Positions 13,936-34,138 of a stretch of DNA of 64,000 nucleotides are shown one piece after another; position 1 is the first letter of the stretch; each line of letters opens with the position of its first letter. The stretch spans positions 434,001 to 498,000 of the forward strand of contig CANMYO010000002.1 of the NCBI GenBank assembly GCA_947502145.1. The letters run 5' to 3'. The notes under the pieces were generated by a model, which was not told the origin of the DNA, searched no databases, and was given only the letters and a program-made list of their open reading frames with translations. The DNA is from an uncultured Paracoccaceae bacterium. GTDB lineage: Bacteria; Pseudomonadota; Alphaproteobacteria; Rhodobacterales; Rhodobacteraceae. A program made the translations under genes and the position numbers.

Positions 13936-14922
13936 TCAGGCCATGCGTGCGGCTTTCTGGGCTTCCAGTGCTGAGTGCCGCCGCATTGCCGAATAACGAT
14001 CAATGGCAACGGCAGCGAGAAGGACGCTGCCGCGTACGACGTCATAGATGTAGGGGGAGGCGTTCATGAGATTCAAACCGTTGTCGATCAGCACGAGGAA
14101 GACCGCCCCGATCACTGATCCGATCACAGTGCCAGAGCCGCCGGTCAGCTTGGTACCGCCGAGGATCACAGCCGCAATGACCGTGAACTCAATCCCGATG
14201 CCGATGCCCGACTGAAGACCGCCCACACGGGCAAGAAGGATCAGAGCTGCGATGCCTGTGACCAAACCACTGAACGCATATACGGCAATTGTGACGCGCC
14301 CGACTGGCAGATTGGTTTCTTTGGCCGATCGTTCAGAATTTCCGATGGCACGCGCATAGACCCCAAGCCGTGTCCGGCTGAGCATATAGACACCAATGAT
14401 CACGATGGTGGCCATGATCAGGATTGGCACCGGGACACCCAGGATGCGCCCGTTCCCCAGAAAGCCCATTTCGCGCGGGACCGGGATATTCTGGGCACCC
14501 GTGAGATGGATCGCGGCACCGCGGTAGATCGAATATGTGGCCAGTGTCGTGATCAGTGGCGATACGCGGAAATACACAACGAGCCAGCCGTTCAGCGCGC
14601 CCAATCCGGTGGCGCAAACAATCGTTACGACAAAAGCGATCAGGTAATTTTCTGTATCCAGCATCAGCTGGGCAAAGAGAGCCGACGTCAAAAACAGAAT
14701 GGCGCCGACAGAAATATCAATCCCAGCTGTGAGAATGATGAACGTCATCCCAACGGCCATGATCGCCGTCACGCTTGATTGCACAAGGATGGCTTGGAAA
14801 TTCGAGAGGGTCAGGAACACCGGTGACGCCAGCGACAAAACCGCGGCAAGCACAATTGTTGCCAGGACAACAGCGATCCATTTTTGCCGAGAAATGAGAG
14901 TGCGGATCGTATTACGCGACAT
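13936..14922 (-). CDS. CUT2 (ribose-type) ABC transporter permease, system A
   Basis: A 328-residue inner-membrane permease of the BPD_transp_2 / RbsC family, with the family signatures TAGIDISVGAI near residue 75 and ILGGTKLTGGSGTVIGS near the C-terminus. The ATG at 14922 (MSRNTIRT) is preferred over a start at 15003, which would overlap the ATPase gene extensively. With this start the overlap is 11 bases. It is the last gene of the 18376-13936 operon and the second permease of the system, so the pore is probably a heterodimer with the 16411-17352 product. Confidence 0.93.
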   Translation of the reverse strand: MSRNTIRTLISRQKWIAVVLATIVLAAVLSLASPVFLTLSNFQAILVQSSVTAIMAVGMTFIILTAGIDISVGAILFLTSALFAQLMLDTENYLIAFVVTIVCATGLGALNGWLVVYFRVSPLITTLATYSIYRGAAIHLTGAQNIPVPREMGFLGNGRILGVPVPILIMATIVIIGVYMLSRTRLGVYARAIGNSERSAKETNLPVGRVTIAVYAFSGLVTGIAALILLARVGGLQSGIGIGIEFTVIAAVILGGTKLTGGSGTVIGSVIGAVFLVLIDNGLNLMNASPYIYDVVRGSVLLAAVAIDRYSAMRRHSALEAQKAARMA

Positions 14923-16414
14923 TTGAGACCTCTTCCCCAGAGCTTGCCGCCATCGAGATGATCGCGACGCTGTCGTAGTTTTCACGCTGCACTTCCCCGA
15001 CAATGCGACCTTTGCGCATGACCAGTAAACGATGCGTGATATGCAGAAGCTCGGGCAGGTCTGATGACACGATCAGCACGGTCTTCCCGCTGCGGGCCAA
15101 TTCTGCGATGGCTTCGTGAATGTCGAATTTTGCGCCGATATCAACACCCTTGGTGGGTTCGTCAAATATCAGAATCTCCGGTTCCATTGACAGCCAGCGC
15201 CCAAGAAGGACCTTTTGCTGGTTGCCGCCGGAAAGGTCGCTGACGTGATTTTCGATATGCGGAATAGCGATGTTCATTTCGTCGACCATCTCGGCGGACT
15301 TGGCCTTTTCTCCGCGAAACCCGATCCCGCGCATTGCGCGGCGCACATACTTTGCGATGGCTGCAGCAGACAGATTTTCGCGCACAGGCCGATTGAGGAA
15401 GAGGCCGTTGGTGCGGCGATCCTCGGTCACATAGCAAAGTCCGTTTGCCTTCATTGCAGTGACGTTGCGCGCAACCGGTTTCCCATCAATCAGCACGTCA
15501 CCGGTAGCATGTCGCAATCCAAAGATGGCTTCGGCAAGTTCTGTTCGACCGGCACCCATCAGGCCAGCGATGCCAAGTATCTCGCCCCGGTGGACCGTCA
15601 GATTGACGTCGTGAAAATCGGGGGATGTGAGCCCGCGCACTTCCAAGGCCGGGGATTGTGATGGTGAGCCAAGGGCGACGCGCGCGTCTTCCAATGTGCG
15701 CCCGACCATCATCTCTTCCAAGGTGCGCTGGCTGACGTCGGCCAGCTTTCCCTGACCGACCTGTTTGCCATCCCGAAGCACAACAAAGCTGTCACAGACG
15801 CGGTAAATTTCTTCCATGAAGTGAGAGATAAATATGATCGATAATCCACCGGCCTTCAGCTTGTCGATGATTGCAAACAGCTTTTCGCGCTCAACGGCGG
15901 TCAGTGATGTGGTTGGTTCATCCAGGATCAGAACCCGGTCAGCGTGCAGCAACGCCTTTGCGATTTCCACGACTTGCTGTTTGCCTGCGCCCAATGTTTC
16001 GATCAGGGCACGCGGGTCAATTTCAATGCCAAGAAAGTCGATCTGTTCACGGGCGATTTGTTCTGCCTGATCCCATTTGACCCTTGCGGCACTGCCCGGC
16101 AGGTCAGAGATGCAGATGTTCTCAGCCACACTTAACGAACCAAAGAGGGACAGTTCCTGATGCACGGCGGATATCCCGTGACCCGTTGGGCTGACCCTTT
16201 CGACAGGCTGTCCTGCGACGCTGATCTGCCCACTCGTAGGCAGCAGAAGGCCGCAGAGCATGTTCTTGGTTGTGGATTTGCCTGCGCCGTTTTCGCCCAC
16301 AAGTGCCAGAACCTCGCCCGGGTGCAGGTCAAACGCCAGATCGGACACAACGGTCTTGTCGCCAAAGGTCTTTGTCAGGTTGCGCACTGACAGGCTGGGC
16401 GCGTTGTCGGTCAT
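14912..16414 (-). CDS. CUT2 ABC transporter ATP-binding protein, system A
   Basis: A double-ABC ATPase of the RbsA type, 500 residues. First domain: Walker A GENGAGKST and signature GAGKQQVVE. Second domain: degenerate Walker A GLMGAGRTE, normal in this family, and signature LSGGNQQKV with Walker B LIFDEPTKGVD. The ATG at 16414 overlaps the upstream permease stop (ATGA) and has GGAGGG seven bases upstream, so the longer frame from 16450 is not used. It energises uptake of a monosaccharide-like compound. Confidence 0.94.
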   Translation of the reverse strand: MTDNAPSLSVRNLTKTFGDKTVVSDLAFDLHPGEVLALVGENGAGKSTTKNMLCGLLLPTSGQISVAGQPVERVSPTGHGISAVHQELSLFGSLSVAENICISDLPGSAARVKWDQAEQIAREQIDFLGIEIDPRALIETLGAGKQQVVEIAKALLHADRVLILDEPTTSLTAVEREKLFAIIDKLKAGGLSIIFISHFMEEIYRVCDSFVVLRDGKQVGQGKLADVSQRTLEEMMVGRTLEDARVALGSPSQSPALEVRGLTSPDFHDVNLTVHRGEILGIAGLMGAGRTELAEAIFGLRHATGDVLIDGKPVARNVTAMKANGLCYVTEDRRTNGLFLNRPVRENLSAAAIAKYVRRAMRGIGFRGEKAKSAEMVDEMNIAIPHIENHVSDLSGGNQQKVLLGRWLSMEPEILIFDEPTKGVDIGAKFDIHEAIAELARSGKTVLIVSSDLPELLHITHRLLVMRKGRIVGEVQRENYDSVAIISMAASSGEEVSNVA

Positions 16415-17352
16415 GACTCCCTCCGGGTGCCGAGCTTCATGGCCATCCACGTTCCAAGAAAGATCAGGATGCCTTGAATGATGAGCTGGTCATAAAACGG
16501 GATGCCGATCAGGTTCAGCCCGTTGGTCAACATGGCCAGAATCGCTACGCCAAGAATGGTGCGTTCAACAGAGCCTTCGCCACCGGTCATGCCGGTGCCG
16601 CCAAGCACAACAGCCCCGATGATGATCAACAGGAGTGTATCACCCACGCCCGGGATCGCATTCCCGAGATTGGCGATAGATATAAACCCGGCCACGCCGC
16701 CAAGCGTGCCGGCAAAGAGGTATACACTGAATGTGGTGAATGGGACATTGATCCCCGAGAAGCGGGCGGCCGCTTCGTTGGAACCGACGAGCATGACATG
16801 ACGGCCCCAGGTGGTCCGGGCCATTGCAGTGCCCGAAAGAATAACAATCAAGAGGGCAATGACCATAACGGCGGGAATGCCGAACCAGACCATGAACCCG
16901 AAATCCAGCATCCAATACGGGGTTCCGCGAACCGCAATCCCAGAGCTAAACACAAAGGCAAGACCGCGGGCAATCAACCCGGTCGCCATTGTCGTAATGA
17001 AGGGTGTCATCCGAAAATACCCGATCAGCAGGCCATTCAATGCACCAAAACCAAAGCCCACGATGACTGCGGTTGCGGCACCCAGTGCAACATTGTCCGT
17101 CGCTGCCATCACAAGACCAGAGGCAACGGCGCTGACGCTGATAACGGTTGATATCGACAGGTCGATGCCGCCAGCCAGGAATACGACGGTCATGCCAACG
17201 GCTGCGATCAGTACAACCGCATTTGCACCCAGCATCGCCTCAACATTGCCAATTGTGAGAAAGAATGGAGACAGAAGGGAAAAACCGGTCAACAGCACTG
17301 CGATGATCGCGAGGGCCGGATAGGATTTCAGGAATTTCGTTGCAGACTGCAC
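16411..17352 (-). CDS. CUT2 ABC transporter permease, system A (first permease)
   Basis: A 313-residue RbsC-family permease with AGGIDLSISTVIS near residue 60 and VLGGTGMTGGEGSVE near residue 250. Eight or more hydrophobic segments. It follows the binding-protein gene by 70 bases, which contain a stable hairpin, and is translationally coupled to the ATPase gene. It shares the same general plan as the 13936-14922 permease but differs clearly in sequence, so the two are not a recent duplication. Confidence 0.92.
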   Translation of the reverse strand: MQSATKFLKSYPALAIIAVLLTGFSLLSPFFLTIGNVEAMLGANAVVLIAAVGMTVVFLAGGIDLSISTVISVSAVASGLVMAATDNVALGAATAVIVGFGFGALNGLLIGYFRMTPFITTMATGLIARGLAFVFSSGIAVRGTPYWMLDFGFMVWFGIPAVMVIALLIVILSGTAMARTTWGRHVMLVGSNEAAARFSGINVPFTTFSVYLFAGTLGGVAGFISIANLGNAIPGVGDTLLLIIIGAVVLGGTGMTGGEGSVERTILGVAILAMLTNGLNLIGIPFYDQLIIQGILIFLGTWMAMKLGTRRES

Positions 17353-17377
17353 GCCTCAGATCTCCGGACATTATTCT

Positions 17378-17405
17378 GCGATGCGCCACGAGAGCAGCGC
17401 ATCGC
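17378..17405. other. Intra-operon hairpin after the system A binding-protein gene
   Basis: GCGATGCGC - ten-base loop - GCGCATCGC, a perfect nine-base-pair stem 18 bases downstream of the binding-protein stop (minus strand). No T-run follows. Hairpins at this position in ABC operons commonly protect the binding-protein mRNA or reduce read-through to the permease. Confidence 0.6.
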
Positions 17406-17422
17406 GTTGTTACTGCGCAGGA

Positions 17423-18376
17423 TTACTTGGGTGCGCCCCAGATCTTGGCGGCGTTCGCCTCAGTATTCTCGATCGTATAGAGATCGCCACCGACGTAGTT
17501 GACGCGATCAACGGTTTCACCGGCGAGAATGCGAGATACCAGATCGACGGCTGTGCGGCCCGTTGCGTCAGTTCCCATGACGACAAAGGCGTCAGCGGTT
17601 CCTGAAAGAACAGCATCATATCCATCGCGGGAGCCGTTGACACCCGTGATGACGACGTGACCTTCTTCGCCCATTGGTACCAGCTTTCCGGTGTCCGCCA
17701 GAACGGTCTCAACAGCTGGAATATGTGTGTCGGTCGCGGCAAAAACAGCGGCAACATCAGGATTGGCCTGAATTGCGTTCTGGGTGCCAGAAAGGGCGCG
17801 CGCAGAGTCCCAATCGGTCGGAACTTCGATCAGCTTGACGTTTTCGAGCGATGCGATGCCTTCCCGGAAACCTGCAGAACGGTCGATGCCGTTTTGGTCG
17901 TTCAGGGCGCCGATGAGCTCAACAATCACGATTTCGCCTTCGGCGTCGGCAAGTGCTTTGGCGGTGTATTCACCTGCCAGGCGGCCATCTACCAGTGAAT
18001 CGGGCCCAACGAAGGCCTGCACAACGCGGCTGTCTGGCAAATCGCGGTCATAGGCGACAACGGGAATGCCGGCGCGCTGCGCAGCAATCAACGCACGTTC
18101 GATGGTGTTTTGGTCAACAGCACAGACCAGAATTGCATCCACGCCCTGCGCAATCAGCGATTGAATCTGGGCGTTTTGCTGTTGCGGGTCGCCGTCTGCG
18201 ACAACCTCGATAACTTCGTAGCCCTTATCCGCCGCACCAGCCTTGATTCCGTTGTTCACAGCGACACGACTTTCGAACAATTGATCCACAGAAAGGCCAA
18301 TTGTAATGTCGTCTGCCATGACTGCAGTTGCCATGGATACAGCAGCGGCCGTGATGGCCCCTAAAAACTTTCTCAT
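17423..18376 (-). CDS. CUT2 substrate-binding protein, system A
   Basis: A 317-residue periplasmic binding protein of the ribose/galactose type (Peripla_BP_4). A Sec signal peptide occupies about residues 1-21 (ending VMADD). The mature part begins ITIGLSVDQLFESR and shows the fold's typical ligand-loop motifs: VAYDRDLPD, VGPDSLVDGRLAGEY, IELIGALNDQNG, FAATDTH and ITGVNGSRDGYD. The alternating Asp/Asn/Arg residues suggest a polyhydroxylated ligand. It is the first gene of its operon with GGAGG ten bases upstream. The ligand is unknown. Confidence 0.92.
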   Translation of the reverse strand: MRKFLGAITAAAVSMATAVMADDITIGLSVDQLFESRVAVNNGIKAGAADKGYEVIEVVADGDPQQQNAQIQSLIAQGVDAILVCAVDQNTIERALIAAQRAGIPVVAYDRDLPDSRVVQAFVGPDSLVDGRLAGEYTAKALADAEGEIVIVELIGALNDQNGIDRSAGFREGIASLENVKLIEVPTDWDSARALSGTQNAIQANPDVAAVFAATDTHIPAVETVLADTGKLVPMGEEGHVVITGVNGSRDGYDAVLSGTADAFVVMGTDATGRTAVDLVSRILAGETVDRVNYVGGDLYTIENTEANAAKIWGAPK

Positions 18377-18463
18377 TTCCGATTTCCTCCAAAAAACGTC
18401 CAGCCAAGCACCGGCCCGCTCCCCCGCGTTCTCTCAGCGCTCAGTAGTAACGTTTTTATTAAA

Positions 18464-18490
18464 GCAAGTAACTTTTATATTTGCAAGTGC
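18464..18490 (-). promoter_or_regulatory. Operator/promoter element of the system A operon (shared motif)
   Basis: Plus-strand GCAAG half-sites at 18464 and 18483 flank an AT-rich core. The block 18470-18489 matches 29395-29414 at 17 of 20 positions, in the same orientation relative to the genes. Read towards the gene, TTGCAA could be a -35 and TTAATA, 18 bases on, a -10. It lies about 90 bases before the binding-protein start. Likely target of the IclR protein encoded at 30339, by inference. Confidence 0.6.
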
Positions 18491-18701
18491 CGGATGCATG
18501 GAAGTTGCGTGAAATTTCGGCAAAATCAGGGTTTCTCAACCGGTTTGGGGAAACAGGCGAATGAATTTAAAAAACAATCGGTTAGGGATGTGACAAGCCG
18601 TCGCGATTGCGGCAGCAGCGACCAAGACGGGGCGTGTCAAATCATCCGTCGCCCTGTGCATTCAACTGCGATACGCCTGCCAAACGTGTAAATTTCCGAT
18701 G
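18491..18701. other. Intergenic region without recognised gene
   Basis: The space between the shared operator and the aldehyde dehydrogenase operon end. It contains short frames only, none with a ribosome binding site, and no further motif that I recognise. Confidence 0.4.
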
Positions 18702-18749: not shown

Positions 18750-20183
18750 TCAGAATTTTTGATAGACGGTTCTCTTTTGCAGGTAACCTTCGATCCCGTG
18801 CATCCCGTCTTCGCCCCCAACACCGCTGAGCTTGTGCCCGTTGTGGTAGCCTTGAATGTAGCCAACGATACCGGAGTTCAAAAAGATTGTGCCGGTCTCG
18901 AGCCGCTGAATGGCATCCCAATAGATCGACGGATTCTGCGTCCAAAGATAGGCCGAAAGTCCATCCGGGCGCGCATTTGCGATGGCGAGCGCCTCTTCAT
19001 AATCGGCGACGCGTACAATGGGCAGGACCGGGCCAAATATCTCTTCCTGCACGGCCGTGGAATCCGGCTTTGCGTTGACCAGAACGGTGGGTTCATACCA
19101 GTTGCCCGATTTGAACGCATCCCCGTCTGGCCGCTTGCCGCCCATCGCGATTTCTGCGCCGTCAGCGACGGAGTCTGCGACGATCCTTTCCACGCGCTCA
19201 AGTGCGGCGGGGGTGGTGATTGGACCCATGCCGCCATTTGTCGCCGGATCGCCAACGTGCACTTCAGCTGCGCGTTTCAGCAGTTTCTGTGTGAATTCAT
19301 CTGCAACGGCCTCTTCCACCAAGACCGTTTCGTTGCAAATGCAGACCTGACCGGCATTGGCAAAGCGTGCGATGACTGCGGCCTCAACCGCGGCATCAAT
19401 ATCTGCATCCTTTAGGACGATGAACGGAGCGCTTCCGCCAAGTTCCAGCGACAGCGCGGTGATGTTCTTTGATGACGCCTCGGCAACCATTTGGCCCGCA
19501 CGAATGGAGCCTGTGAGGGTGATCATGCGGACAATCGGACTGGTCGTAAGTGGCGCGCCAACATCGGCACCCGTTCCGGTAAGCATATTGATAACGCCAG
19601 GGGGAACGCCTGCCTCTTGCACAATGCGGCAGAACACAGAAGCGGTGACTGGCGTCGCCTCGTGCGGTTTGATGATCATGGTGTTACCGGTGACAAGAGC
19701 CGGACCCGCTTTACGGCCAATCAGTGCCAGCGGGTAATTGTAAGCGCAAAGCCCGAGCGTGACACCATAGGGTACTTTGTAGATGTAAAGCTGTTCACGT
19801 GGATTGTCAGACGGCAGGATATCGCCGCGGAGGCGGCGTGCAGCTTCTGCGGCGTAAGTGAAATAACGGATGGTGTCGGTGACTTCACCGGCGGCTTCGG
19901 CTTTGGTCTTACCTTGCTCCATCACCAGCAAATCTTCAAACAGATCCCGTTCGGATTCGATCCCGGCAGCGATTTCATAAATGTATTTTGCGCGTTCGAA
20001 TGCAGGAAGCATTTGCCAAGAGCGTTGGGCGATCTGTGAACTTTCAAGTGCCCTTGCGACATCATCCGGCGTGCAGGCGGGCACTTCTGCCCATTGTTCG
20101 CCATTGGCCGGATTGTATACCGGCATACGCGCACCGTTGGAGGCCTCAACCCATTCATTGTCGATAAAACATTTGTAAAACAT
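18750..20183 (-). CDS. Aldehyde dehydrogenase, AldA-like (glycol/lactaldehyde type)
   Basis: A 477-residue NAD(P)-dependent aldehyde dehydrogenase. Catalytic elements: the [11 protein letters not shown] region with the oxyanion Asn, LELGGSAPF with the general-base Glu, and the nucleophile Cys in [10 protein letters not shown]. The tail [16 protein letters not shown]...YLQKRTVYQ closely follows that of Escherichia coli AldA, so glycolaldehyde- or lactaldehyde-like hydroxyaldehydes are plausible substrates. The ATG at 20183 has AGGCGAAG upstream; a TTG at 20210 would overlap the ATPase gene. It is the final gene of the long catabolic operon. Confidence 0.92.
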
Positions 20184-20206
20184 GGTCTTCGCCTTTCCTG
20201 TTCGCG

Positions 20207-21706
20207 TCAATGTGGCTGGCCAACGCCAGCCATGTCAGAGAGCATCTGGTCTTTTTCGAAATTGGGGTACGTGTATTCAGATACCGGGCTGCCTTGATAA
20301 AGCGTGATCACGCGGTCCGCGAGCATGATGACCTCGTCGATTTCATAGGACAGGATCAGGATTGCAACGCCGCGCTCTGACAGCTCTTCGATGATGCGGT
20401 AAATGTCCGCCTTGGCGTGCACGTCGATGCCGCGTGTTGGCTCCAGCAAGATCAGAAATTCAAGATCGGGATCAAGCCAGCGCGAGAAACAGATTTTTTG
20501 CTTGTTGCCGCCTGACAGGAACCGGATTTCCTGATCGGGAGAAGATGTTTTCGTAGAGGTGTCAGCAATTGCCTTGTTGACCAGCGTGTCAATGCGCTTG
20601 CCGTCGATGATGCCGCCACGCACGGATTTTTCAAGGAAGGGCAGGGCGATGTTGTCGCGCACGGATAACTGCGGCAGGATCCCGTTCTTATCCCTGTTTT
20701 CTGTTACGAGCCCCATGCCATCACGTACCGATGCCGCCGGGCCGCGCCCCGGTTTGAGCTGCTTCCCACCGTAGGAAATTGTACCGGAATAGTCCGCATC
20801 CAAGCCAAAGATCGCCTTGGCAATTTCAGGTGCACCGCAGCCGCGCAGACCCGTCAAAACCAGAATCTCGCCGCGCCGCACATCAAATGAGATGTCATTA
20901 TATGTGCCTGGCTTTGTCAGCGTTGAAACAGAAAGCGTGACATTGCCGTCGATATCCTTGTGGGGTTTAACGAAACCGTCCAATTCGGTGCCGGTCATCG
21001 TCTTAATCACTGCGTCCTCTGTTGTTTTGGCTGTTCGTTCGGAGAGGACGATCTTGCCGTCGCGCATCACGGTGACCTGTTCGGCGATGCCAAAAATTTC
21101 AGGCATATGATGCGAGATGTAGATGATCGATATGCCTTCGGATTTCATTCGGCGAATGAATTCAAACAAGCGGCCTTTGTCTTCCTCGGACAGGGCTGAC
21201 GTTGGTTCGTCCATCACGATCAGCCAACTATCCGACATCAACGCGCGGATGATTTCGACAATTTGTTTTTCGCCGGAGTTCAGCTCTCGGACAGGGCGGT
21301 TAGGGTCAAGATCAAGACCAAAGCGATCAAGCTGCTGTTTGACCCGTCGCGCCATTTCGCTTTTGTCGAGAAAGGGCCCGTTGCGCCGCAACTCCCGGCC
21401 AAGAAAGATGTTGCCCGCGACCGTCAGTTCATTGATCAGCGAATATTCTTGATGGATCATTGAAATGCCAAGGCGGCCCGCGTCGGCGGGCGCGGCAATT
21501 TCAACCCGCTCGCCGTTCACCTCAATGATGCCTTCGTCGCGGGAAATGACGCCGCCCAAAACTTTCATCAAGGTTGATTTACCTGCACCGTTCAGACCAA
21601 CAAGCGCGTGCACCTCGCCAGACACACAAGAGAAATCAACGTTGTCCAGCGCACGGGTGGCAAAGAAGCTTTTTCCGATGCCTTTCATGTCAATACGTTT
21701 AGTCAT
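20207..21706 (-). CDS. CUT2 ABC transporter ATP-binding protein, system B
   Basis: A 499-residue double-ABC ATPase (RbsA type). First domain: Walker [10 protein letters not shown], signature [10 protein letters not shown] (a departure from LSGGQ, tolerated in this family). Second domain: altered Walker [10 protein letters not shown], signature LSGGNKQKI and Walker [11 protein letters not shown], where Leu replaces the usual phenylalanine and Leu-Glu the Asp-Glu pair. Only the first site is likely to hydrolyse ATP efficiently. Coupled by ATGA to the permease gene upstream. Confidence 0.93.
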
Positions 21707-22677
21707 ACCGATTTGCCCCGCTGGGTATAAGTATCCAAGAGAACGACCCCCAAGAGGATCATGCCTTTGATCAGGCTTTGCAGGTATGGATTGGTGCCTG
21801 TCAGGACCAAGCCATTGATGATAATCCCGTAGAGAAGAACGCCCAGTATGGTGCCAAGTAGGCGCCCACGTCCGCCTGAAAGCGCCGTTCCGCCGAGGAT
21901 CACGGCTGTGATCGCATCAAACTCCAGGAAGAGCCCGGCCCAGGGTTGACCCGATGAAACGCGACCCACCGTGACGATGGCAGACAAGCCCGCCAATGCG
22001 CCAGAAAGGACATAGATCCAAACGACACTGCGTTCAGGTCGCCGGCCAAGGACAAAAGCCGTGTTGAAATTTGAACCAGCGGCATAGACGTTGCGACCAA
22101 ATGTCGTGCGGTACAGCAGGACGGACAGAGCGATGAACATCAGTGCGACAAAAGGGATCACGACCGGGAGGTTGTTCCAGCTGGTGCCGCCGAGCCAGAG
22201 AAAAGCTGCGTTGTCGACATTGATCGAATCCGCGTCATATATCACCAGCGCGAGACCCCGCGCCAAGGCAAAGGTCGCAAGTGTGACCATGAAGGCAGAC
22301 AATCGTAAGCGGCCAATAAAGACGCCATTCACCCAGCCAATCGCCATACCCGCGAGCAGGGCGCAAATGAAACCGATTGTCGCCGATCCGGTTGTTGTCA
22401 GGGCAACAACACCAACCCCACCGGAAAACGCCACGTTAGAGCCAACGCTGAGGTCAATGCCGCCCGTCAGCATGATAAACGTCATGCCCATTGAGACCAA
22501 GAACAGCACCGAAATGGAGCGCAGCAAAATCCCGACATTGGTAATCGAGTAGAAATTGCTGTTTGCAAGACTGAACCCAACAGAGGCAATTACGATCAGG
22601 CCGACCAGTACGGCATAGCGCAGCATCAGGCCATCCAATGCGAATGTGCGGCGCGGCGAAACGGCGGCATCAGACAT
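21703..22677 (-). CDS. CUT2 ABC transporter permease, system B (second)
   Basis: A 324-residue RbsC-family permease with TGGIDLSVGSNVAFSG near residue 70 and ILGGTALSGGRGRLLG near residue 255. It lies 72 bases downstream of the binding-protein gene, after a strong hairpin, and is coupled to the ATPase gene. It forms the translocation pore with the 23842-24798 permease, by analogy with other two-permease CUT2 systems. Confidence 0.92.
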   Translation of the reverse strand: MSDAAVSPRRTFALDGLMLRYAVLVGLIVIASVGFSLANSNFYSITNVGILLRSISVLFLVSMGMTFIMLTGGIDLSVGSNVAFSGGVGVVALTTTGSATIGFICALLAGMAIGWVNGVFIGRLRLSAFMVTLATFALARGLALVIYDADSINVDNAAFLWLGGTSWNNLPVVIPFVALMFIALSVLLYRTTFGRNVYAAGSNFNTAFVLGRRPERSVVWIYVLSGALAGLSAIVTVGRVSSGQPWAGLFLEFDAITAVILGGTALSGGRGRLLGTILGVLLYGIIINGLVLTGTNPYLQSLIKGMILLGVVLLDTYTQRGKSV

Positions 22678-26443: not shown

Positions 26444-27496
26444 CTATGAGTCTGCGTTGCCACTTCCCATCAGAATGATCTTTCCGAACGCCTCCCCCGA
26501 CGCCATGAATTCAAGTGCTGTTCCGGCCTCCGCGAGTGGAAACGCCCGAGCTGTCAAAACGTCAAAGTCGATGCTGCCCGATTCAATCAGCTGCACCGCC
26601 TCTTCAAATTCGCGGTTGAACTGAAAGGATCCGACAATTGCGATTTCCTTCAACATGATCAAATGCAATGCGATCTCGGCCGATCGCATTTGAATATTGC
26701 TCAGTATCGCGATCTTGCCCTTTTGGCGGACCGCTTTCAGCGCTGTGTTGAACGCCGGAATGGCCCCGCTGGCCTCAACAACAACGTCAAAGGCTTTTTC
26801 AATGTCAGCGTCATCGTATTCGCCAGCGATCAGGCCGGTTTTGGCGCCCGCCTTTTTGGCAACTGCAACTGCATTGGGCCGCAGGTCGAGTGCGGTGACC
26901 TCCGCGCCCCGTGCGGCTGCCCCGGCAATTGCCAGGAGCCCCATCGGACCGCAGCCGGTGACAAGTACCTTTTGGCCCGCTTCTACACCGCCTTTGTTCA
27001 ATGCATGCAGGGCACAGGCCAGCGGTTCGGCGAACGTCAGGTGGCACGGATCTACATGCGCGGCGACTGGCCGGCAGCATCTTGCAGGGTGATCAATTGA
27101 ATCACGAAAGAACCCATCCAAATGCGGGACCGTTGTTGCCGATCCAGGAAATTTCTTGGAAGTGCAGAGGTTCTCTTCACCTCGTTTGCAGGCCTCGCAT
27201 GTTTGACAGTTCATGATCGGATTGAGCGCGACCAATTCGCCGACCTTGAGGTCAGATCCGTTCGGGTTCACCACGTAGGCGCAGGCCTCGTGGCCAAGCG
27301 TGACTGGGTTTTGCAAAAGAAACCCGGCGTTCGCAAACTGTGAATAGTAGTGCAAGTCTGTGCCGCAAAGACTGGCAACCGCAAGTCGAAGTCGCGCGTG
27401 GCCTTGCGGCGTATCTGACGTGCCTTGCGGCGCAGTCGAGACCATTTTTGCTGCAGTCAGTTTGGTTTCGATTTTTGACACGGTTTTGTCTTTCAA
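26444..27496 (-). CDS. Zinc-dependent alcohol dehydrogenase, L-idonate 5-dehydrogenase-like
   Basis: A 350-residue medium-chain dehydrogenase. Catalytic zinc ligands lie in LCGTDLHYY (Cys) and LGHEACA (His-Glu). Structural zinc is held by CQTCEACKRGEENLC. The Rossmann motif is VTGCGPMGLLAI. The layout, including PHLDGFFRD and FAEPLACALHA, follows L-idonate 5-dehydrogenase (IdnD) and sorbitol-type enzymes that oxidise secondary hydroxyls of sugar acids or polyols. It overlaps the SDR gene by four bases, recalling idnD-idnO pairings. The exact substrate is not known. Confidence 0.88.
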   Translation of the reverse strand: MKDKTVSKIETKLTAAKMVSTAPQGTSDTPQGHARLRLAVASLCGTDLHYYSQFANAGFLLQNPVTLGHEACAYVVNPNGSDLKVGELVALNPIMNCQTCEACKRGEENLCTSKKFPGSATTVPHLDGFFRDSIDHPARCCRPVAAHVDPCHLTFAEPLACALHALNKGGVEAGQKVLVTGCGPMGLLAIAGAAARGAEVTALDLRPNAVAVAKKAGAKTGLIAGEYDDADIEKAFDVVVEASGAIPAFNTALKAVRQKGKIAILSNIQMRSAEIALHLIMLKEIAIVGSFQFNREFEEAVQLIESGSIDFDVLTARAFPLAEAGTALEFMASGEAFGKIILMGSGNADS

Positions 27497-28209
27497 AATC
27501 CGATGGCGTAGCCGCCGTCAACGGGCAGATTGACCCCGTTGACGTAGGCCGCCTGATCGGAGGCGAGATAATAGATGGTGTTGGCTACGTCTTGGGGCGT
27601 GCCAAAGCGATGGGTTGGAATGCGCGCCTCGATCCGGTCCCGGCGTGCCGGATCCTTTGCAAGGATCGCGCGCGTCATGTCGGTGTCAATGAAGCCAGGG
27701 CTGACCGCATTGCAGCGGATCCCAAACGGTGCAGCGTCTACTGCGACTGAGCGGGTCAACCCGACCACCGCGGTTTTGGCTGTGACATAAGCGGCAGAGG
27801 CGGGCAGGGCCATGATGCCGCCCATCGAGGCGACATTCACAATCGCGCCACCAGTTTCACGATGCAGGGCAACATAACGACCGCAGGCCGCGAACATGGC
27901 CCGCACATTTACGTCGAGCACTTTGTCCAATTCGTCCGAAGAGACATCCCAGACCGGCTTTTTCAGATGAACGCCAGCATTATTGATCAATGCGGCGATT
28001 GGGCCGGATTCTTTGTGTATGCCAGCCAGCCAGGACGCATCCTTGTCGGCTGCGATGTCGTGTTCATGAAAGATACAGCTTGTGCCCAGCACTTCAACGT
28101 CAGCGCGGCTGCGTGCAACCACATGGACGTCATATCCAGCGTCGATGAACCGCTTGGACTGGCTTAGCCCAAGACCTTTATTTCCACCTGTGATGACGGC
28201 GACGGGCAT
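27493..28209 (-). CDS. Short-chain dehydrogenase/reductase (gluconate 5-dehydrogenase-like)
   Basis: A 238-residue classical SDR. Cofactor motif TGGNKGLG, structural NNAG in INNAGVHLKKP, catalytic Ser in NVASMGG, and YVTAK with catalytic Tyr and Lys. The NNAGxxxKKP variant and the C-terminal VNGVNLPVDGGYAIGF resemble sugar-acid 5-dehydrogenases (IdnO/Gno type) and 3-oxoacyl reductases. Unusually, the motif following TGGNKGLG lacks the common I in GxGIG. It lies three bases downstream of the solute-binding-like gene. Confidence 0.88.
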   Translation of the reverse strand: MPVAVITGGNKGLGLSQSKRFIDAGYDVHVVARSRADVEVLGTSCIFHEHDIAADKDASWLAGIHKESGPIAALINNAGVHLKKPVWDVSSDELDKVLDVNVRAMFAACGRYVALHRETGGAIVNVASMGGIMALPASAAYVTAKTAVVGLTRSVAVDAAPFGIRCNAVSPGFIDTDMTRAILAKDPARRDRIEARIPTHRFGTPQDVANTIYYLASDQAAYVNGVNLPVDGGYAIGF

Positions 28210-28212
28210 CAG

Positions 28213-29325
28213 TTAAGCACCTCTTGCATGATGGCGATAAAGCGAGTTGAGCGCGGCGAGAAAGGTGTCAGTCGGGATGTTCTTGCGAAAGAAATCCGAG
28301 ATGATCTCGCAAACGGCATCGACATACCCAAGAAACCAGGGTTCGCGCGGGCGGGTCCAGGCATTGTCGATTGTGCGATAACCGCCTTTGTAGAATCCTG
28401 ACAGCTCTGGATCGTCTTGGAATGATTGCCAAGTGTGACGGTTTGCCGGTTGCCCGTTGTTGGCCTGATATACGCCCGACTGCACCTCGGCAGAGGTTAT
28501 CCACTGCGCAAATGCGATCGCCTCTTCTGGGTGCGCAGTTTGCGCCGACACGCCAATCCCGGCACCACCGAGAATGGCGCGCGGCTGGGAGAAGCCTTCG
28601 CACAGGGGCATGTCAAAGTAAGTGACCTGATGTTTCCTGAAACCGCGCCGGACATAATTCACATAGCCGAACAGGCAGGGAGAGCAGGCGAAATCATCCA
28701 CATCCGACAAGGTTTCGAGCACCCGGATTGGGTTCATTTCGACCTGTTCTTCGGGTCCCAATTGATACAGGGCCCGCATGATGGAAAGCGCATAGTTTCC
28801 GTTTGCGTCACTGACAAAGCGCTCGTCATTGAACGGCATCGCCGCACCACCACGTCCAGCGACGAGGGTCATAAACATGTCAAAGGCATCAACAGGCAGA
28901 AGCGGTGTAAGGGGCCGGAAAGTCGCAGCGTCCGGACCAAGGAACTCTTCCCAACAGGCAGGGCGTTGTGCCAGCAAATCCGGCCGGCAAGCCGACATTT
29001 GGCATGCCGCATCAATTGCGTACGCCCAGCACTGTCCATCCCAAACGTAGCTTTCTGCTGAGCCACCAAGCGAAGCGGTTTCATCCGTTGGCGCTGGCAA
29101 CGGTAGCAACGCACCGGTTTCGGCGATTTGCCCCACGTGGGGGTGATCCAACACAATGAAATCATAAGACTTTGCCAAGTCTGCAATCGGTGCATCTGCA
29201 AAGGCCTGAAGGGATCTTTTGTCCCAGGAAATCGTTGCCCCGTTCTGACGCGCATAGGATTCTGACGCGGCTACGACCGGGTCGTATCCACGTGGGTGGT
29301 CCCATGTCATCCCTTGGAGAATCAT
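28213..29325 (-). CDS. Solute-binding-fold protein lacking a signal peptide
   Basis: A 370-residue protein with the general plan of family 1 extracellular solute-binding proteins (YDFIVLDHPHVGQIAETGAL near residue 60; EEAIAFAQWITSAEVQSG in the C-terminal lobe). It has no hydrophobic N-terminus from either ATG (29355 or 29325) and carries about ten cysteines, including ACSPC, so it is most likely cytoplasmic. ATG 29325 has AAGGCGG upstream. It is the first gene of the long catabolic operon and stands opposite CoA-transferase genes. An enzymatic, sensory or chaperone role is more likely than transport. The ligand is unknown. Confidence 0.8.
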   Translation of the reverse strand: MILQGMTWDHPRGYDPVVAASESYARQNGATISWDKRSLQAFADAPIADLAKSYDFIVLDHPHVGQIAETGALLPLPAPTDETASLGGSAESYVWDGQCWAYAIDAACQMSACRPDLLAQRPACWEEFLGPDAATFRPLTPLLPVDAFDMFMTLVAGRGGAAMPFNDERFVSDANGNYALSIMRALYQLGPEEQVEMNPIRVLETLSDVDDFACSPCLFGYVNYVRRGFRKHQVTYFDMPLCEGFSQPRAILGGAGIGVSAQTAHPEEAIAFAQWITSAEVQSGVYQANNGQPANRHTWQSFQDDPELSGFYKGGYRTIDNAWTRPREPWFLGYVDAVCEIISDFFRKNIPTDTFLAALNSLYRHHARGA

Positions 29326-29380
29326 TGATGCCGCCTTGCAATTTACTGAACGCAACTGTGGTCCAAATTGAATTCAGTTT

Positions 29381-29414
29381 GCAAGTATAAAAATAACTTT
29401 TAAATGTGCAAGCG
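29381..29414 (-). promoter_or_regulatory. Operator/promoter element of the long catabolic operon (shared motif)
   Basis: Plus-strand GCAAG half-sites at 29381 and 29408 flank an AT-rich core. The block 29395-29414 matches 18470-18489 at 17 of 20 positions. Read towards the gene, TTGCAC with ATACTT 17 bases on could serve as -35 and -10. It lies in the divergent region between the solute-binding-like gene and the hydratase gene, close to the IclR gene. Confidence 0.6.
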
Positions 29415-29574: not shown

Positions 29575-30339
29575 ATGACCCAAACAGATGATGGTGACGT
29601 CCGGCTTGAGATTGAAGGCAATATCGGCGAGATCGTTTTGGATCGCCCGCGCAAACACAACGCGCTGACACCGCATATGTACAAACAGATTGCGGCATGC
29701 TGTGCAGCCGCAAATGATTCCCCCGACGTTCGCGTCGTCATTTTTCGCGGTGCGGGAGATCGTGCTTTCTGCGCCGGATCCGACATCAAGGCGCTGGAGG
29801 GATACGAGGATTTTTGGGCCTGGCGCAATCGGGCAGACTATATTCCGCCCATCCTTGATTTACGCAAACCAGCAATTGCCGCTGTCAAGGGATGGGCCCT
29901 TGGCGGTGGTTTGGAAATCGCTTTGGCGTGCGACCTCCGGGTTGTCGCCCGATCTGCGACATTTGCAGCGCCAGAAGTTCAATTGGGATGGAATGGCGCA
30001 GGCGGCGCGGCGCAGCACCTGACCCGCCTCTGTGGCTACGGTCAGGCAATGCGCTTGTTGTTGACCGGCGATCGGTTCAGTGCCCAAGAGGCTTCGGATC
30101 TTGGCATGGTGGAATGGTTGGTTGACGATGGCGAAGAGCTGGCGCGCGCGCGGCAGATCGCAGACCAGATTGCCGCGCATTCAAGTGTCGCGACACAGGC
30201 GGTCAAGTCTGCGGTGCGCGGCGCAATGGATTTGACTGTCTCTCAGGGATTGCGGCACGAGAACGAGCTGATGTCACTTTGCTTTGCAAAGGTTGAACAG
30301 GCTAAGCTGCGCGCATCACTGGATGGAGAGATCGAGTAA
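29575..30339 (+). CDS. Enoyl-CoA hydratase/isomerase family protein
   Basis: A 254-residue crotonase-fold enzyme acting on CoA thioesters. Both acidic residues used by hydratases are present: Glu in GGGLEIALACD and Glu in APEVQLGW. The oxyanion-hole region DRAFCAGSDIKALEG is typical. The ATG at 29575 is chosen since the residues before it (from 29524) do not belong to the family. The stop overlaps the iclR start (TAATG). With the adjacent CoA-transferases it implies that a carboxylate intermediate is handled as a CoA thioester, and dehydration or hydration is the expected step. Confidence 0.9.
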   Translation: MTQTDDGDVRLEIEGNIGEIVLDRPRKHNALTPHMYKQIAACCAAANDSPDVRVVIFRGAGDRAFCAGSDIKALEGYEDFWAWRNRADYIPPILDLRKPAIAAVKGWALGGGLEIALACDLRVVARSATFAAPEVQLGWNGAGGAAQHLTRLCGYGQAMRLLLTGDRFSAQEASDLGMVEWLVDDGEELARARQIADQIAAHSSVATQAVKSAVRGAMDLTVSQGLRHENELMSLCFAKVEQAKLRASLDGEIE

Positions 30340-31145
30340 TGCGGCAGGACAAGGTTGACACACAATTGGACAGGAAATCAAAAACGGCCGTCCCAGCGGT
30401 CGAAAAAGCGCTGGACGTGCTGGAACTGCTCGCAGGGTCGCCGGATGGGCTGACCATGAACGAAATTGTCGATGCGCTTGGTCGCACGATGGGAGAGCTT
30501 TACCGTGTGGTCGTTTTTCTGGCCGACCGGGGCTACCTGCAGCAGAATGTCGAAACAAGCCGCTACGCGTTGACGCTCAAACTGTTTGAATTATCACACA
30601 CGCACGATCCAACTGAGCGGTTGATCGCCGCCGGTCTGCCGATGTTGGAACGGATCGCCGCCGGCACGCGGCAATCTTGCCATCTGGGTGTACTGAATCG
30701 CACAAATGTGCTGGTTCTGGCTTCGGTGCAAAGCCCATTACCGGCAGGGTATTCTGTCCGTACTGGTGCCCTGTTTCCGGTGGAACAGACAAGTTCAGGG
30801 CACGTGATCTTGGCTTTTTCGTCAGCGGAAACGCAGAAACGTTATATCGGACGTCTGCCAAAGGGTGACAGGGATGCGACAAAGGCCCGGCTTGAGCGCA
30901 TTCGTCTGAATGGATTTGAAGATACGCCAAGTACGATGATCTATGGCGTGCGTAACCTGTGCGTTCCGGTTCTTGATACGCGCGGGGTCACAGCGGCCAT
31001 TACGTCGGGGTTTATTGAGCAACACGATGTGGCGGCCTCTGCTGACGCGGTTCTGGCGACCATCCGCCTGACTGCGCTTGAACTTTCGCGATCACTTGGC
31101 TTTCGGCCTGAAACCAGCCCGTTCGAAGCCGCTCTATCACTTTGA
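30339..31145 (+). CDS. IclR family transcriptional regulator
   Basis: A 268-residue regulator with an N-terminal winged helix (about 20-85: AVEKALDVLELLAGSPDGLT, then EIVDALGRTMGELYRVVVFL) and a C-terminal IclR effector domain (about 100-260). IclR proteins control catabolic operons in response to pathway metabolites. It is co-transcribed with the hydratase and CoA-transferase genes and lies about 1 kb from the shared operator at 29381-29414, so it is the most economical candidate for control of both divergent arms and of system A. Direct binding is inferred. Confidence 0.92.
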   Translation: MRQDKVDTQLDRKSKTAVPAVEKALDVLELLAGSPDGLTMNEIVDALGRTMGELYRVVVFLADRGYLQQNVETSRYALTLKLFELSHTHDPTERLIAAGLPMLERIAAGTRQSCHLGVLNRTNVLVLASVQSPLPAGYSVRTGALFPVEQTSSGHVILAFSSAETQKRYIGRLPKGDRDATKARLERIRLNGFEDTPSTMIYGVRNLCVPVLDTRGVTAAITSGFIEQHDVAASADAVLATIRLTALELSRSLGFRPETSPFEAALSL

Positions 31146-31160
31146 GGACAAGACCAACAC

Positions 31161-32315
31161 ATGACCGATGCTGCCATTGACCTGCCACTAAAGGGCCTGC
31201 GCGTTCTCGACTTTGCCCAATTTCTTGCCGGACCGGTTGCTGCGCTGCGGCTGTGTGATCTTGGGGCAGAAGTTATCAAGATTGAACGTCCCCAAGGGGG
31301 CGATTTGTGTCGGGCCATGGTTGTGAACGATCAGCGGCTGGATGGTGATAGCCTTGTGTTTCACACTTTTAACCGCGGCAAGAAGAGTGTCGCAGCCGAT
31401 CTTAAGAACCCTGATGATCTGGCGGCCGTGCGCCGCCTGATTCAGACTGCAGATGTCATGATTCACAACTTTCGCCCAGGCGTGATGGAACGGATTGGCT
31501 TGGGCTATGCGGATGTATCGGCCTTGAACCCGCGGATTGTCTATGGTGCCGTGTCTGGATATGGCACAAATGGGCCGTGGCGGGACAAGCCGGGGCAGGA
31601 CCTGTTGGTGCAGTCGCTGTCCGGGATTGGTTGGCTTAGCGGGGATGCAGACGACGGTCCCGTTCCGACGGGATACGCGGCACTCGACGTGGCGACCGCC
31701 GGAAATCTTGTGCAGGGTATATTGGCCTGTCTCTTACGGCGTGCTGTTAGCAACAAGGGCGGGCTTGTTGAGGTCGACCTTCTGTCTGCCGCAATTGATA
31801 TGACATTTGAGCAGTTCACGTGTTTCCTGAATGACAAGGAAACCCAACCAGTTCGTCACAAGTCCGGCAATGCCAATCCTTATCAACCGGCACCATATGG
31901 AATTTACAAAACCGTCGACGGCTATCTGGCCTTTGCCATGACACCATTGGCAAAGGTTGCCGACCTGCTGGGGGCACCCGAAATAGCGGCGTTTGGTCAG
32001 GAGGGGGCGTTCTCGCATCTGAATGAGATCAAATCCCTAATCGCCGAAATTTTTGAAAAACGGTCCACGCAGCATTGGCTGGATTTGCTGGAGCCCGCGG
32101 GCATTTGGTGCGCGCCTTGCCTTGACTGGCCGGGGTTTGTCGCAACCGAGGGGTTTAGGGCGCTTGATCCGGTTCAGACAATACGTTCAGAACAGGGGAC
32201 AGAAGCAAAGACAACGGCCTGCCCGATCCGCATTGACGGCGCGATGCTGAAATCCGGCAAAGGCGCACCCGCATTGGGGGCCCATACCGACGAACTGATC
32301 GCTGAGAAAGTGTAG
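31161..32315 (+). CDS. Type III CoA-transferase (CaiB/BaiF family), first of pair
   Basis: A 384-residue family III CoA-transferase. Conserved elements: LRVLDFAQFLAGPVA at the N-terminus, GAEVIKIERPQGGD, FNRGKKS, NFRPGVMERIGLGY, and SGYGTNGPWRDKPGQD, where the final Asp is the expected acyl-anhydride nucleophile. It moves CoA between carboxylic acids, usually from succinyl-CoA or a product thioester. It lies 15 bases after iclR and three bases before its paralogue, so a heterodimer is likely. Confidence 0.92.
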   Translation: MTDAAIDLPLKGLRVLDFAQFLAGPVAALRLCDLGAEVIKIERPQGGDLCRAMVVNDQRLDGDSLVFHTFNRGKKSVAADLKNPDDLAAVRRLIQTADVMIHNFRPGVMERIGLGYADVSALNPRIVYGAVSGYGTNGPWRDKPGQDLLVQSLSGIGWLSGDADDGPVPTGYAALDVATAGNLVQGILACLLRRAVSNKGGLVEVDLLSAAIDMTFEQFTCFLNDKETQPVRHKSGNANPYQPAPYGIYKTVDGYLAFAMTPLAKVADLLGAPEIAAFGQEGAFSHLNEIKSLIAEIFEKRSTQHWLDLLEPAGIWCAPCLDWPGFVATEGFRALDPVQTIRSEQGTEAKTTACPIRIDGAMLKSGKGAPALGAHTDELIAEKV

Positions 32316-32318
32316 CGG

Positions 32319-33455
32319 ATGTCGGCGCCGCTCGATGGGATCCTGGTCGTCGATTTCAGTCAGTTTTTGTCAGGACCATATGCGTCACTTCAACTGATGG
32401 ATCTGGGGGCACGGGTCATCAAGGTTGAGAACCCGAATGGTGGCGACCTTTGCCGCAAACATTATGTGAGCGAAACGCAGATTGATGGAGATTCGACCAT
32501 CTTTCACGCGATCAATCGTGGCAAGCAAAGCATTGCGCTGGACCTCAAGGCAGAGGTCGATTTGGCAAAGGCGCGCCGGTTGATCGCGAAGGCGGACATC
32601 GTGATACAAAACTTCCGCCCCGGCGTAGTGGAGCGGCTGGGGCTCGCCTATGAGTCTGCCAAAAAGATCAGACCTGACATTATTTACGGGTCAATTTCCG
32701 GATACGGGGAAATGGGAGACTGGTCTGAAGCGCCGGGCCAAGACCTGCTTGCGCAAGCGCGGTCAGGCGTGATGTGGCTAAGTGGGAATGCAGGCAATGG
32801 CCCAGTTCCTATCGGGATTCCGATTGCAGACATCACCGCAGGTGCCAATCTCGCGCAGGGCATCTTGGGTGCATTGTTTCATCACGCCCGAACAGGGCAG
32901 GGAACTTTCGTGCAAACCAGCCTGCTGGAAGCCCTGATTGATCTCCAGTTTGAGTTCCTGACCACCTACTGCAACAACGGCGCCACGCCGCCACAGCGGT
33001 TGGAACGTGGATCGGCGCATGGGTATCTTGCTTCGCCATATGGCGTCTATAGGACGCAAGAGGGGCACCTCGCGCTGGCTATGACCCCACTTCCCAAGCT
33101 GGCGCAGGCATTGGATGCGCCAACTATGTTTGATGGTTTTGAGGGGACGTTGGCATCATTTCATTCACGCGACGCATTGTTTCGTATCATTGAGGCCAGG
33201 TTAAGGTCCCGGCCAGCTGCCGATTGGGACCGGGCACTTGGTGCCGCGGGAATTTGGTGTGCCAAGGTGCTCGACTGGCCCGAAGTTCTTGCCTCTGATG
33301 CGGTTCAATCACTGGACATGCGCGCGCGCGTTGCCGGCGAATTTGAGGTGTTCCGTTCTCCGATCAGAATGAATGGACGCCGACCTGACGCGCATAGCAT
33401 CGCGCCACGCTTGAACGCGCAGGCGGAAGATATCTGCCGCGAGTTTGACTTGTAG
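32319..33455 (+). CDS. Type III CoA-transferase (CaiB/BaiF family), second of pair
   Basis: A 378-residue paralogue of the preceding protein with the same motif series (ILVVDFSQFLSGPYA, GARVIKVENPNGGD, INRGKQS, NFRPGVVERLGLAY, EAPGQDLLAQARSG). The nucleophilic Asp is retained, so both copies could be active. Similar adjacent pairs form heteromeric enzymes such as succinyl-CoA:benzylsuccinate and succinyl-CoA:malate CoA-transferases. Which acid is activated here is unknown. Confidence 0.92.
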   Translation: MSAPLDGILVVDFSQFLSGPYASLQLMDLGARVIKVENPNGGDLCRKHYVSETQIDGDSTIFHAINRGKQSIALDLKAEVDLAKARRLIAKADIVIQNFRPGVVERLGLAYESAKKIRPDIIYGSISGYGEMGDWSEAPGQDLLAQARSGVMWLSGNAGNGPVPIGIPIADITAGANLAQGILGALFHHARTGQGTFVQTSLLEALIDLQFEFLTTYCNNGATPPQRLERGSAHGYLASPYGVYRTQEGHLALAMTPLPKLAQALDAPTMFDGFEGTLASFHSRDALFRIIEARLRSRPAADWDRALGAAGIWCAKVLDWPEVLASDAVQSLDMRARVAGEFEVFRSPIRMNGRRPDAHSIAPRLNAQAEDICREFDL

Positions 33456-33548
33456 CGCGGGCATTTAGGGGGCGACCATGCGCCGGCATGTTGCAGGGTC
33501 CATGGCACCCCTGCCGCCGATCTTTGCCTTACTTCACCGCAAGAGACG

Positions 33549-34138
33549 GTGGAGCATCCAGTGCGGGATCTTTTCAATCTTGAGCAAATCCCATCGACCG
33601 TGTCGCAACGGCGGCGAGGCGGGATTTGGTCGAGGATTGCGCGGCGCAATTGGCCGTTCAAGTTGCCGGAGTTCATGAATGACGCAGAGTTTGCTTCGGA
33701 TCTTGAGCTTTTCGGGCCGCTGCTTGCGCAAAATGCATTCCTACATACCATGGACCGTCCGCTCGCACGGGTGAACGTCATGGCCTACGGTGAGGGACAG
33801 GCGCTGAACTGGCATTTCGACCGGTCGGAATTTACCACGACGTTGCAGCTGGAGCAGCCCGATGCGGGTTGGTGAATTGAATATGACCAGGACTTGCGCA
33901 GCGAAAGTGACCCGAAGTGTGATTGCGTCGCGGATTTGGTCGCCGGGCGTCGAAAACCAATCAGTATGGACTTTACGCACGGAACACTGAACGCTTTTCC
34001 GGGGTAAGAAGCGCGGACTGGGTGACGCCTGTGCAGGGCAAGAAGGATCGATGCATCGCGGTATTTTCATATTATGATCGCCTAGGTGTCGCATTCAGTG
34101 AAAATGGGCGAATTGGCTTCTACGGGCGTCATGCTTGA
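33549..34138 (+). pseudogene. Decayed 2-oxoglutarate/Fe(II) oxygenase (HalD/BesD-like)
   Basis: Remains of a roughly 195-residue 2OG-Fe(II) oxygenase. Frame 1 from a GTG at 33549 gives NVMAYGEGQALNWHFDRSEF, then a TGA at 33873-33875. The same frame continues IEYDQDLRSESDPKCDC and ends at TAA 34005. Homology resumes in another frame (ADWVTPVQGKKDRCIAVFSY, ending FYGRHA at 34138). So one nonsense codon and one frameshift separate the parts. The HFD iron triad half is intact, with the Asp of hydroxylases rather than the Gly of halogenases. It probably once belonged to the adjacent catabolic cluster. Confidence 0.75.

Follow-up and report, generated by a model that had tools for sequence, protein, structure and literature searches.

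The closest published precedent for the gene cluster described here is the catabolism of deoxyribose and deoxyribonate, in which a sugar is converted to an acid and the acid to coenzyme A (CoA) thioesters; the parts of that account that deal with Klebsiella propose a CoA-synthetase, a beta-hydroxyacyl-CoA dehydrogenase, a thiolase and a CoA-transferase (PMC6365646). As far as we found, only isolated examples, deoxyribonate among them, have been described in which a sugar acid is activated with CoA. Also relevant is the oxidative L-fucose/L-fuconate pathway of Xanthomonas, with which TRAP importers for L-fuconate and L-galactonate have been reported, in a paper whose main text, the portion covered, has no match to CoA, MaoC or CaiB (PMC5507952). 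Here we examine a 64,000-nucleotide stretch of DNA (the window) from an uncultured, marine-type Paracoccaceae bacterium (GCA_947502145.1, contig CANMYO010000002.1), in which Pfam and NCBIfam scans place 17 genes in two divergent arms at 13936-33455. We judge it reasonably probable that these genes form one catabolic system, probably under the control of an IclR-family regulator, which would break down a sugar-like compound and its acid by way of CoA thioesters, aided by a cytoplasmic partner, a leaderless solute-binding-fold protein that we call SBP8.

The cluster resembles the deoxyribonate route in its combination of sugar oxidation and CoA-acid chemistry, but differs in having type III CoA-transferases, a crotonase and the leaderless binding protein, and in having no thiolase, beta-keto acid cleavage enzyme or kinase (glycerate kinase included) among its 17 genes, to which this Pfam search was confined. 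Enzyme types of the Xanthomonas pathway surround many relatives of the SBP8-CaiB pair, whereas the 17 genes, again the whole scope of the search, include no lactonase, L-fuconate dehydratase or diketo-deoxyfuconate hydrolase. A preliminary description of this DNA had called the mixture of sugar import and CoA-acid chemistry no textbook pathway, which is fair, although CoA-bound sugar-acid catabolism does have the deoxyribonate precedent (PMC6365646). No leaderless binding protein associated with CaiB is named in the titles and abstract openings of the open-licence papers that we found, which does not imply absence from print, and PMC9007349, for the terms searched in it, has no mention of an SBP8-CaiB module.

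The gene families listed in the preliminary description (two CUT2 importers, AldA-like, GMC, IdnD-like and SDR dehydrogenases, a binding fold, a crotonase, an IclR regulator and a CaiB pair) were all recovered where it had put them. The region it gave, 13936-34138, stands as far as 33455, the end of the second CaiB gene; 33456-34138 is not part of the cluster. The minus-strand arm begins with SBP8 (28213..29325; 370 aa from the ATG at 29325) and continues, with short gaps or overlaps, through an SDR dehydrogenase (27493..28209; PF13561/PF00106), a zinc alcohol dehydrogenase (ADH) resembling L-idonate 5-dehydrogenase (IdnD-like; 26444..27496; PF08240/PF00107, NF007375 at 217 bits with a cut-off of 469), a choline dehydrogenase-like GMC oxidoreductase (24800..26422; PF00732, PF05199), the first importer, CUT2-1 (20207-24798), and an aldehyde dehydrogenase (ALDH; 18750..20210; PF00171) that matches NF007497 (AldA) at 473 bits with a cut-off of 500. 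CUT2-1 consists of permease B (23842..24798), a periplasmic receptor (22750..23787), permease A (21703..22677) and an ATPase (20207..21706). After a gap of 373 bases follows, on the same strand, the CUT2-2 operon (13936-18376), with a periplasmic receptor (17423..18376), permease D (16411..17352), an ATPase (14912..16450) and permease C (13936..15003), the real start of which is probably further in. Both importers have the make-up of the CUT2 class, with a PF13407-type receptor, PF02653 permeases and an ATPase in which PF00005 matches two stretches. Over the first 32 residues, hydropathy peaks at 2.14 in the CUT2-2 receptor and at 1.76 in the CUT2-1 receptor, which just misses the threshold of 1.9.

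The plus-strand arm holds, in order, a crotonase-family protein (ECH; 29575..30339, ATG at 29575; PF00378), the IclR-family regulator (30339..31145; PF09339, PF01614), CaiB1 (31161..32315) and CaiB2 (32319..33455). By their PF02515 domain and a conserved Asp, CaiB1 and CaiB2 are type III CoA-transferases; the residue is Asp 176 in CaiB1, is also present in CaiB2, and is kept in 110 of 111 aligned CaiB rows, the remaining row being gapped. On the evidence of PF00378 and two Glu-bearing motifs, GGGLE and APEV, ECH is a member of the crotonase superfamily. The SDR YxxxK, ADH zinc, GMC His/Asn and ALDH Cys/Glu motifs are likewise present, all of these being active-site motifs, with the CoA-transferase Asp and the Glu residues of the two crotonase motifs as catalytic residues. 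The best solved relative of CaiB1 is 10uh (182 bits). The CaiB pair shares its family, its Asp and its tandem arrangement with formyl-CoA transferase, SUGCT and the benzylsuccinate CoA-transferase pair, but, unlike known type III CoA-transferases, falls under the cut-offs of all seven NCBIfam models matched. The carnitine Cai system was considered and rejected, the L-carnitine CoA-transferase model scoring 61 and 72 bits with a cut-off of 413 and the crotonobetainyl-CoA hydratase model 133 bits with a cut-off of 500.

To judge whether the arms belong together, we considered which relatives carry their genes, in a family comparison set of 394 genomes from 393 genera (genomes and locus stretches bear our own G and L numbers). 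The SBP8 query (E <= 1e-40) matches 45 of these genomes, eight of them with a window-type protein of at least 54% identity. The crotonase (E <= 1e-60) matches only seven, six at 72-100% identity and one, G085, at 44%, and the CUT2-1 receptor, at 80-100% identity, is found in exactly the same six genomes, all of which fall within the eight. Complete or near-complete clusters occur in Yoonia tamlensis DSM 26879 (L066, complete), Jannaschia marina (L067), G025, G257 and G383. Both arms, in window-type versions, lie in one stretch in seven of the 16 window-type loci (L031, L032, L059, L065, L066, L067 and L070), as they do in G257 and G383, and SDR follows SBP8 in 15 of the 16, the remaining locus, L078, being cut off. 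In the draft genome G007 the cluster is spread over three contigs (C2, C19 and C25), with the GMC-CUT2-1 operon on a contig of its own. The same-genus genome G333 is unmatched by SBP8, the crotonase and both CUT2 receptors.

Intergenic comparison revealed a common operator-like element. The pattern TTGCAARTATAAAARTWACTT, with up to three mismatches allowed, has three matches in the window where 0.01 are expected: two lie inside one palindrome between the divergent arms (29379..29411), and the third, without a mismatch, precedes the CUT2-2 operon on the minus strand (18466..18486). In its 18-base form with two mismatches, the pattern matches the 4.03-Mb genome at only two places, the divergent promoter and the position before CUT2-2; a reversed control pattern has one whole-genome match. 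Among 12 genomes the site is matched in four (G000, G007, G257 and G383), and G333, G001, G002 and G003 are among those without a match. The sole match in G007 precedes the GMC-CUT2-1 operon (L160), and in L059 the element, with two mismatches, lies ahead of CUT2-2. We would expect the IclR protein to bind this site. Taken together, the joint occurrence of crotonase and CUT2-1 receptor in six of 394 genomes, the linkage of the arms in several genera and the common site bear out the earlier proposal that import, oxidation and CoA-acid chemistry belong to one system.

The most unusual part of the cluster is SBP8, which had previously been merely one item among many. Its only library matches are the generic PF13416 and PF01547, no NCBIfam model matching it. 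The better start is the ATG at 29325, immediately ahead of a conserved G[MLIV]TW motif, and no export signal is detected behind it. A profile search of genome contigs gave at least 572 relatives (593 pattern matches), of which the best 80 were kept; together with the family genomes and five plasmid loci, and after removal of L033, a duplicate of L062, of L071, a duplicate of L032, and of the flank stretches L056-L058, these make up 109 SBP8 loci, 16 of window type and 93 outside it. A start codon lies no more than 15 residues ahead of the motif in 108 of the 109, and a longer hydrophobic start is flagged in L076 alone. A hydrophobic N-terminus is found in one of 103 SBP8 proteins, versus 59 of 63 CUT1 receptors, four of five CUT2 receptors and six of seven TRAP receptors in the same loci, so the earlier mention of a leaderless protein is upheld across the family.

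SBP8 nevertheless retains the architecture of a transport receptor. The AlphaFold2 model is very good (pLDDT 93.9) and has the two-lobe MBP-like fold, with TM-scores by query length of 0.72-0.79 at 14-17% identity among the 50 matches listed. The nearest solved proteins by sequence are LpqY and other sugar receptors. Sixteen residues were checked, picked as conserved in an alignment (A1) whose other 25 sequences are 29-73% identical to the window SBP8; of these, eight (W8, R12, D55, D60, P62, D105, A107 and G253) do not vary in any of the 110 rows, and R325 is present in all rows but one, where the alignment has a gap. In the CUT1/MBP-type LpqY (7ape), the residues aligned with D60 and R325 are Asp80 and Arg404, both of which contact trehalose (PMC7949145). 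SBP8 is thus like LpqY in fold and in these two residues, and unlike it in having no leader, no permeases of its own and a linkage to CoA-transferases. No cognate permease or ATPase for SBP8 is present in the window, where the only such permeases are those of CUT2 type, paired with their own receptors.

That linkage extends well beyond the window. SBP8 is found in Pseudomonadota and Actinomycetota and, as metagenome bins, in Bacteroidota and Spirochaetota. A CaiB gene lies in the locus stretch in 97 of the 109 loci, and within 100 nt of SBP8 on the same strand in 78; 91 of the 97 also have a MaoC gene (72) or a crotonase gene (19), six having neither. In Sinorhizobium meliloti 1021, which has an SBP8-CaiB pair, SBP8 lies at 732444-733568 of pSymB. 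Locus genes were named by BLAST against a reference set, in which 'UgpC' or 'ATP' at 25-50% identity means merely an ABC ATPase. Where the naming retained an overlapping frame instead, some rows lack SBP8, SDR or ADH, which a separate analysis of the loci does show; the CaiB counts used tblastn. The 12 loci without CaiB in the stretch are L046, L050, L052, L055, L078 (cut off), L083, L104, L112, L118, L120, L125 and L143. Searching the genomes of the last seven gave a CaiB relative in each at 53-65% identity, which in all of them except L083 would lie less than 0.5 kb past the locus edge if on the same contig; this search also took in L131, a locus that does have a CaiB. In a 110-row tree (quick method, midpoint root), the 17 window-type rows form one clade with an SH-aLRT of 100, and as this clade includes Gammaproteobacteria and a Spirochaetales bin, the branching suggests horizontal transfer. 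A plasmid DNA search in near mode with the whole stretch as query gave a sole match, of 77 bases, in Mesorhizobium.

The computation gives the gene content, the co-occurrence, the common operator-like site, the missing leader, the fold, the pocket-type residues and the CoA-transferase linkage; from these we infer the following order of steps and a physical partnership of SBP8 and CaiB. Uptake would be by CUT2-1, in some relatives also by CUT2-2 or a TRAP carboxylate-type importer. A neutral import would have its terminal alcohol or aldehyde oxidised to a carboxylate by the GMC and AldA-like dehydrogenases, while the TRAP importer of relatives would bring in the acid itself. The type III CoA-transferase would then convert the acid to its CoA thioester, which the crotonase would dehydrate or cleave; relatives may use a MaoC-type hydratase in its place, or a crotonase with a 3-hydroxyacyl-CoA dehydrogenase. 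The SDR and zinc dehydrogenases would oxidise secondary hydroxyls along the route. SBP8 would be a former ABC-transport receptor residing in the cytoplasm, most likely binding the acid or its CoA ester and working with the CoA-transferase. More tentatively, SBP8 could represent a new class of cytoplasmic, enzyme-linked binding proteins, in which a receptor has come to serve type III CoA-transferases as a subunit, as a delivery factor or even as a partner in catalysis, within a CoA route for sugar acids that would be both widespread and so far undescribed, in Pseudomonadota and Actinomycetota and, judging from bins, Bacteroidota and Spirochaetota. If so, a conserved module joining sugar uptake to a CoA-transferase in bacteria of plants, soil and the sea would close a gap in what is known of carbohydrate catabolism, hundreds of leaderless genes labelled 'extracellular solute-binding protein' would gain an annotation, and SBP8 would be an example, open to testing, of how metabolism can recruit a transport receptor.

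Several observations weigh against a single system of this kind. As already noted, the cluster holds no thiolase, cleavage enzyme or kinase, and among the NCBIfam matches listed none of the 17 genes reaches a cut-off, so that exact functions and pathway steps stand without a family assignment. The residue equivalent to the LpqY pocket residue and trehalose contact Asn134 is Ala107 in SBP8, and equivalents of two further LpqY pocket residues, Glu241 and Trp259, were not found (LpqY residues from PMC7949145); the pocket thus differs, and the ligand may be a non-sugar. CaiB is rarely adjacent to SBP8 in the window type, no CaiB was found for five of the 12 loci mentioned above (L046, L050, L052, L055 and L078, whose genomes were not searched), and the SBP8 loci, being rich in Rhizobiaceae and Phyllobacteriaceae, are not independent. 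The operator-like site is unmatched in G025, G310, G314 and G319, all carriers of window-type SBP8. Some of the matched sequences had themselves served to build the pattern, which makes their matches in part a product of construction; the informative part is the absence of further sites.

The phyletic picture has similar gaps. The CUT2-2 receptor (E <= 1e-80) is found in three of the six genomes that share crotonase and CUT2-1 receptor, and a TRAP receptor 75-80% identical to that of L065 in four of the six, but neither in the window's genome nor in G257. G314 and G319 have a window-type SBP8 and no crotonase orthologue, and no GMC or CUT2-1 gene was seen in the stretches examined of L059 and L065. 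The crotonase match in G257 (C7:181169-181900) holds one in-frame TAA, which may mean a broken copy or a match that overruns its end. In eight of the 16 window-type loci, SBP8-SDR-ADH is accompanied by other CoA genes, either a different crotonase, CaiB and 3-hydroxyacyl-CoA dehydrogenase (L068, L073, L074, L076 and L077) or CaiB and MaoC (L069, L072 and L075). Independent occurrence of the arms, which the preliminary description had named as the finding that would speak against it, is thus not seen for crotonase and CUT2-1 receptor, but is seen in part in these eight loci and in the separate contig of G007.

The alternative that survives best concerns the substrate. Possibly, if on the doubtful side, it is specifically a 6-deoxy sugar acid of the L-fucose/L-fuconate type, with the cluster taking the place of the known oxidative L-fucose route in a CoA-dependent form. 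Of five L-fucose-type markers (MR/MLE dehydratase, mutarotase, Gfo/Idh dehydrogenase, Amidohydro_2 and CUT1 receptor), two or more occur in 63 and three or more in 50 of the 93 loci outside the window type, and the sulfatase of L077 and radical-SAM/SPASM gene of L068 would suit sulfated fucans. However, the remaining 30 loci, all five actinobacterial ones included, have fewer than two markers, FAH is present in just four of the 93 (the reference being a fragment), and Pfam finds no lactonase, MR/MLE dehydratase, mutarotase or FAH among the 17 genes; nor does oxidation of an aldose at C1 need both a GMC and an aldehyde dehydrogenase. The earlier idea that an imported polyol is oxidised, activated and dehydrated holds as to one system of import, oxidation and CoA-acid chemistry, the polyol being one candidate substrate. 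The wider gene context favours instead a sugar, or the acid of one, similar to L-fucose or L-fuconate, and a TRAP carboxylate-type importer is present in four of the six genomes. Because of the SBP8 gene neighbourhoods, L-fuconate-like acids are our first guess, more broadly a hexonate or 6-deoxyhexonate such as L-fuconate.

The receptors were tried as a more direct guide and rejected. The L065-type TRAP receptor has 4ovt (224 bits) and 4o8m (194 bits) as its nearest solved relatives, reportedly solved with L-fuconate and L-galactonate, which speaks for the 6-deoxy sugar acid; its AlphaFold2 model, built on three rows, is poor (pLDDT 41), which counts against that acid. The best solved relatives of the CUT2 receptors, at 72 and 99 bits, are too weak. 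Near SBP8 in metagenome bins we observed sulfatase genes (L077, 15937-17478, by Pfam; L078, 64-1566, at 55% BLAST identity) and the radical-SAM/SPASM gene (L068, 8419-9750), neighbours that may indicate a sulfated source of the substrate. In L059, from Jannaschia sp. M317, a beta-keto acid cleavage enzyme (PF05853; 27944-28870) is encoded directly before the CUT2-2 operon and is a candidate for the missing cleavage step.

Two other explanations seem unlikely to us, and about equally so. SBP8 might be a cytoplasmic sensor that reports an intermediate to a regulator or to the enzymes and has no catalytic or delivery role; the retained fold and conserved pocket-type residues would suit this, as would the IclR genes often found near SBP8, but the regulators change between IclR and LacI while CaiB is mostly constant, and in 21 of the 109 loci the tblastn matches to SBP8 and CaiB overlap or end within 20 nt of each other, as would befit subunits. 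Alternatively, sugar-type importers might carry a compound other than a sugar, such as a cyclitol or hydroaromatic acid, on which the CoA genes act. The best match of the IclR protein is indeed to the PcaR/PcaU/PobR model, at 75.5 bits far under its cut-off of 284.75, whereas the two CUT2 systems, the AldA-like enzyme and the sugar-acid clusters in 63 of the 93 other relatives all speak against this.

That two unrelated systems are adjacent by chance is very improbable: the 373-base gap before CUT2-2, its absence from half of the six genomes and the other partners of SBP8-SDR-ADH in eight of 16 loci would fit, but the exactly matching distributions of crotonase and CUT2-1 receptor among the genomes, the common operator-like site and the linkage in several genera largely reject it. 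Hardly credible at all is a reading of SBP8 as a periplasmic receptor that has decayed or been given a wrong start, for although it is an orphan in the window and L076 offers one possible longer hydrophobic start, in 108 of the 109 loci a start closely precedes the conserved motif, its frames are full-length and its residues are invariant across phyla.

With a single catabolic system still the reading we prefer, the surroundings of the cluster deserve a brief description. A tRNA-Arg(CCG) gene (13820-13896) directly adjoins one end. In the same-genus genome G333 (L153), the SufS gene (83% identity) and this tRNA are conserved, while the tested cluster proteins are absent and no long DNA match continues past the tRNA, which makes acquisition or loss of the cluster next to the tRNA gene probable. 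Beyond the other end, 34199-39149 encodes a type IV leader peptidase (34199-34669), a LuxR-type protein, T2SSF and T2SSE, probably a Tad/Flp-type pilus locus, the name Tad being our interpretation. Further along, 54076-56718 encodes a protein of 880 aa that combines an animal haem peroxidase domain with a Hint_2 domain at its C-terminus.

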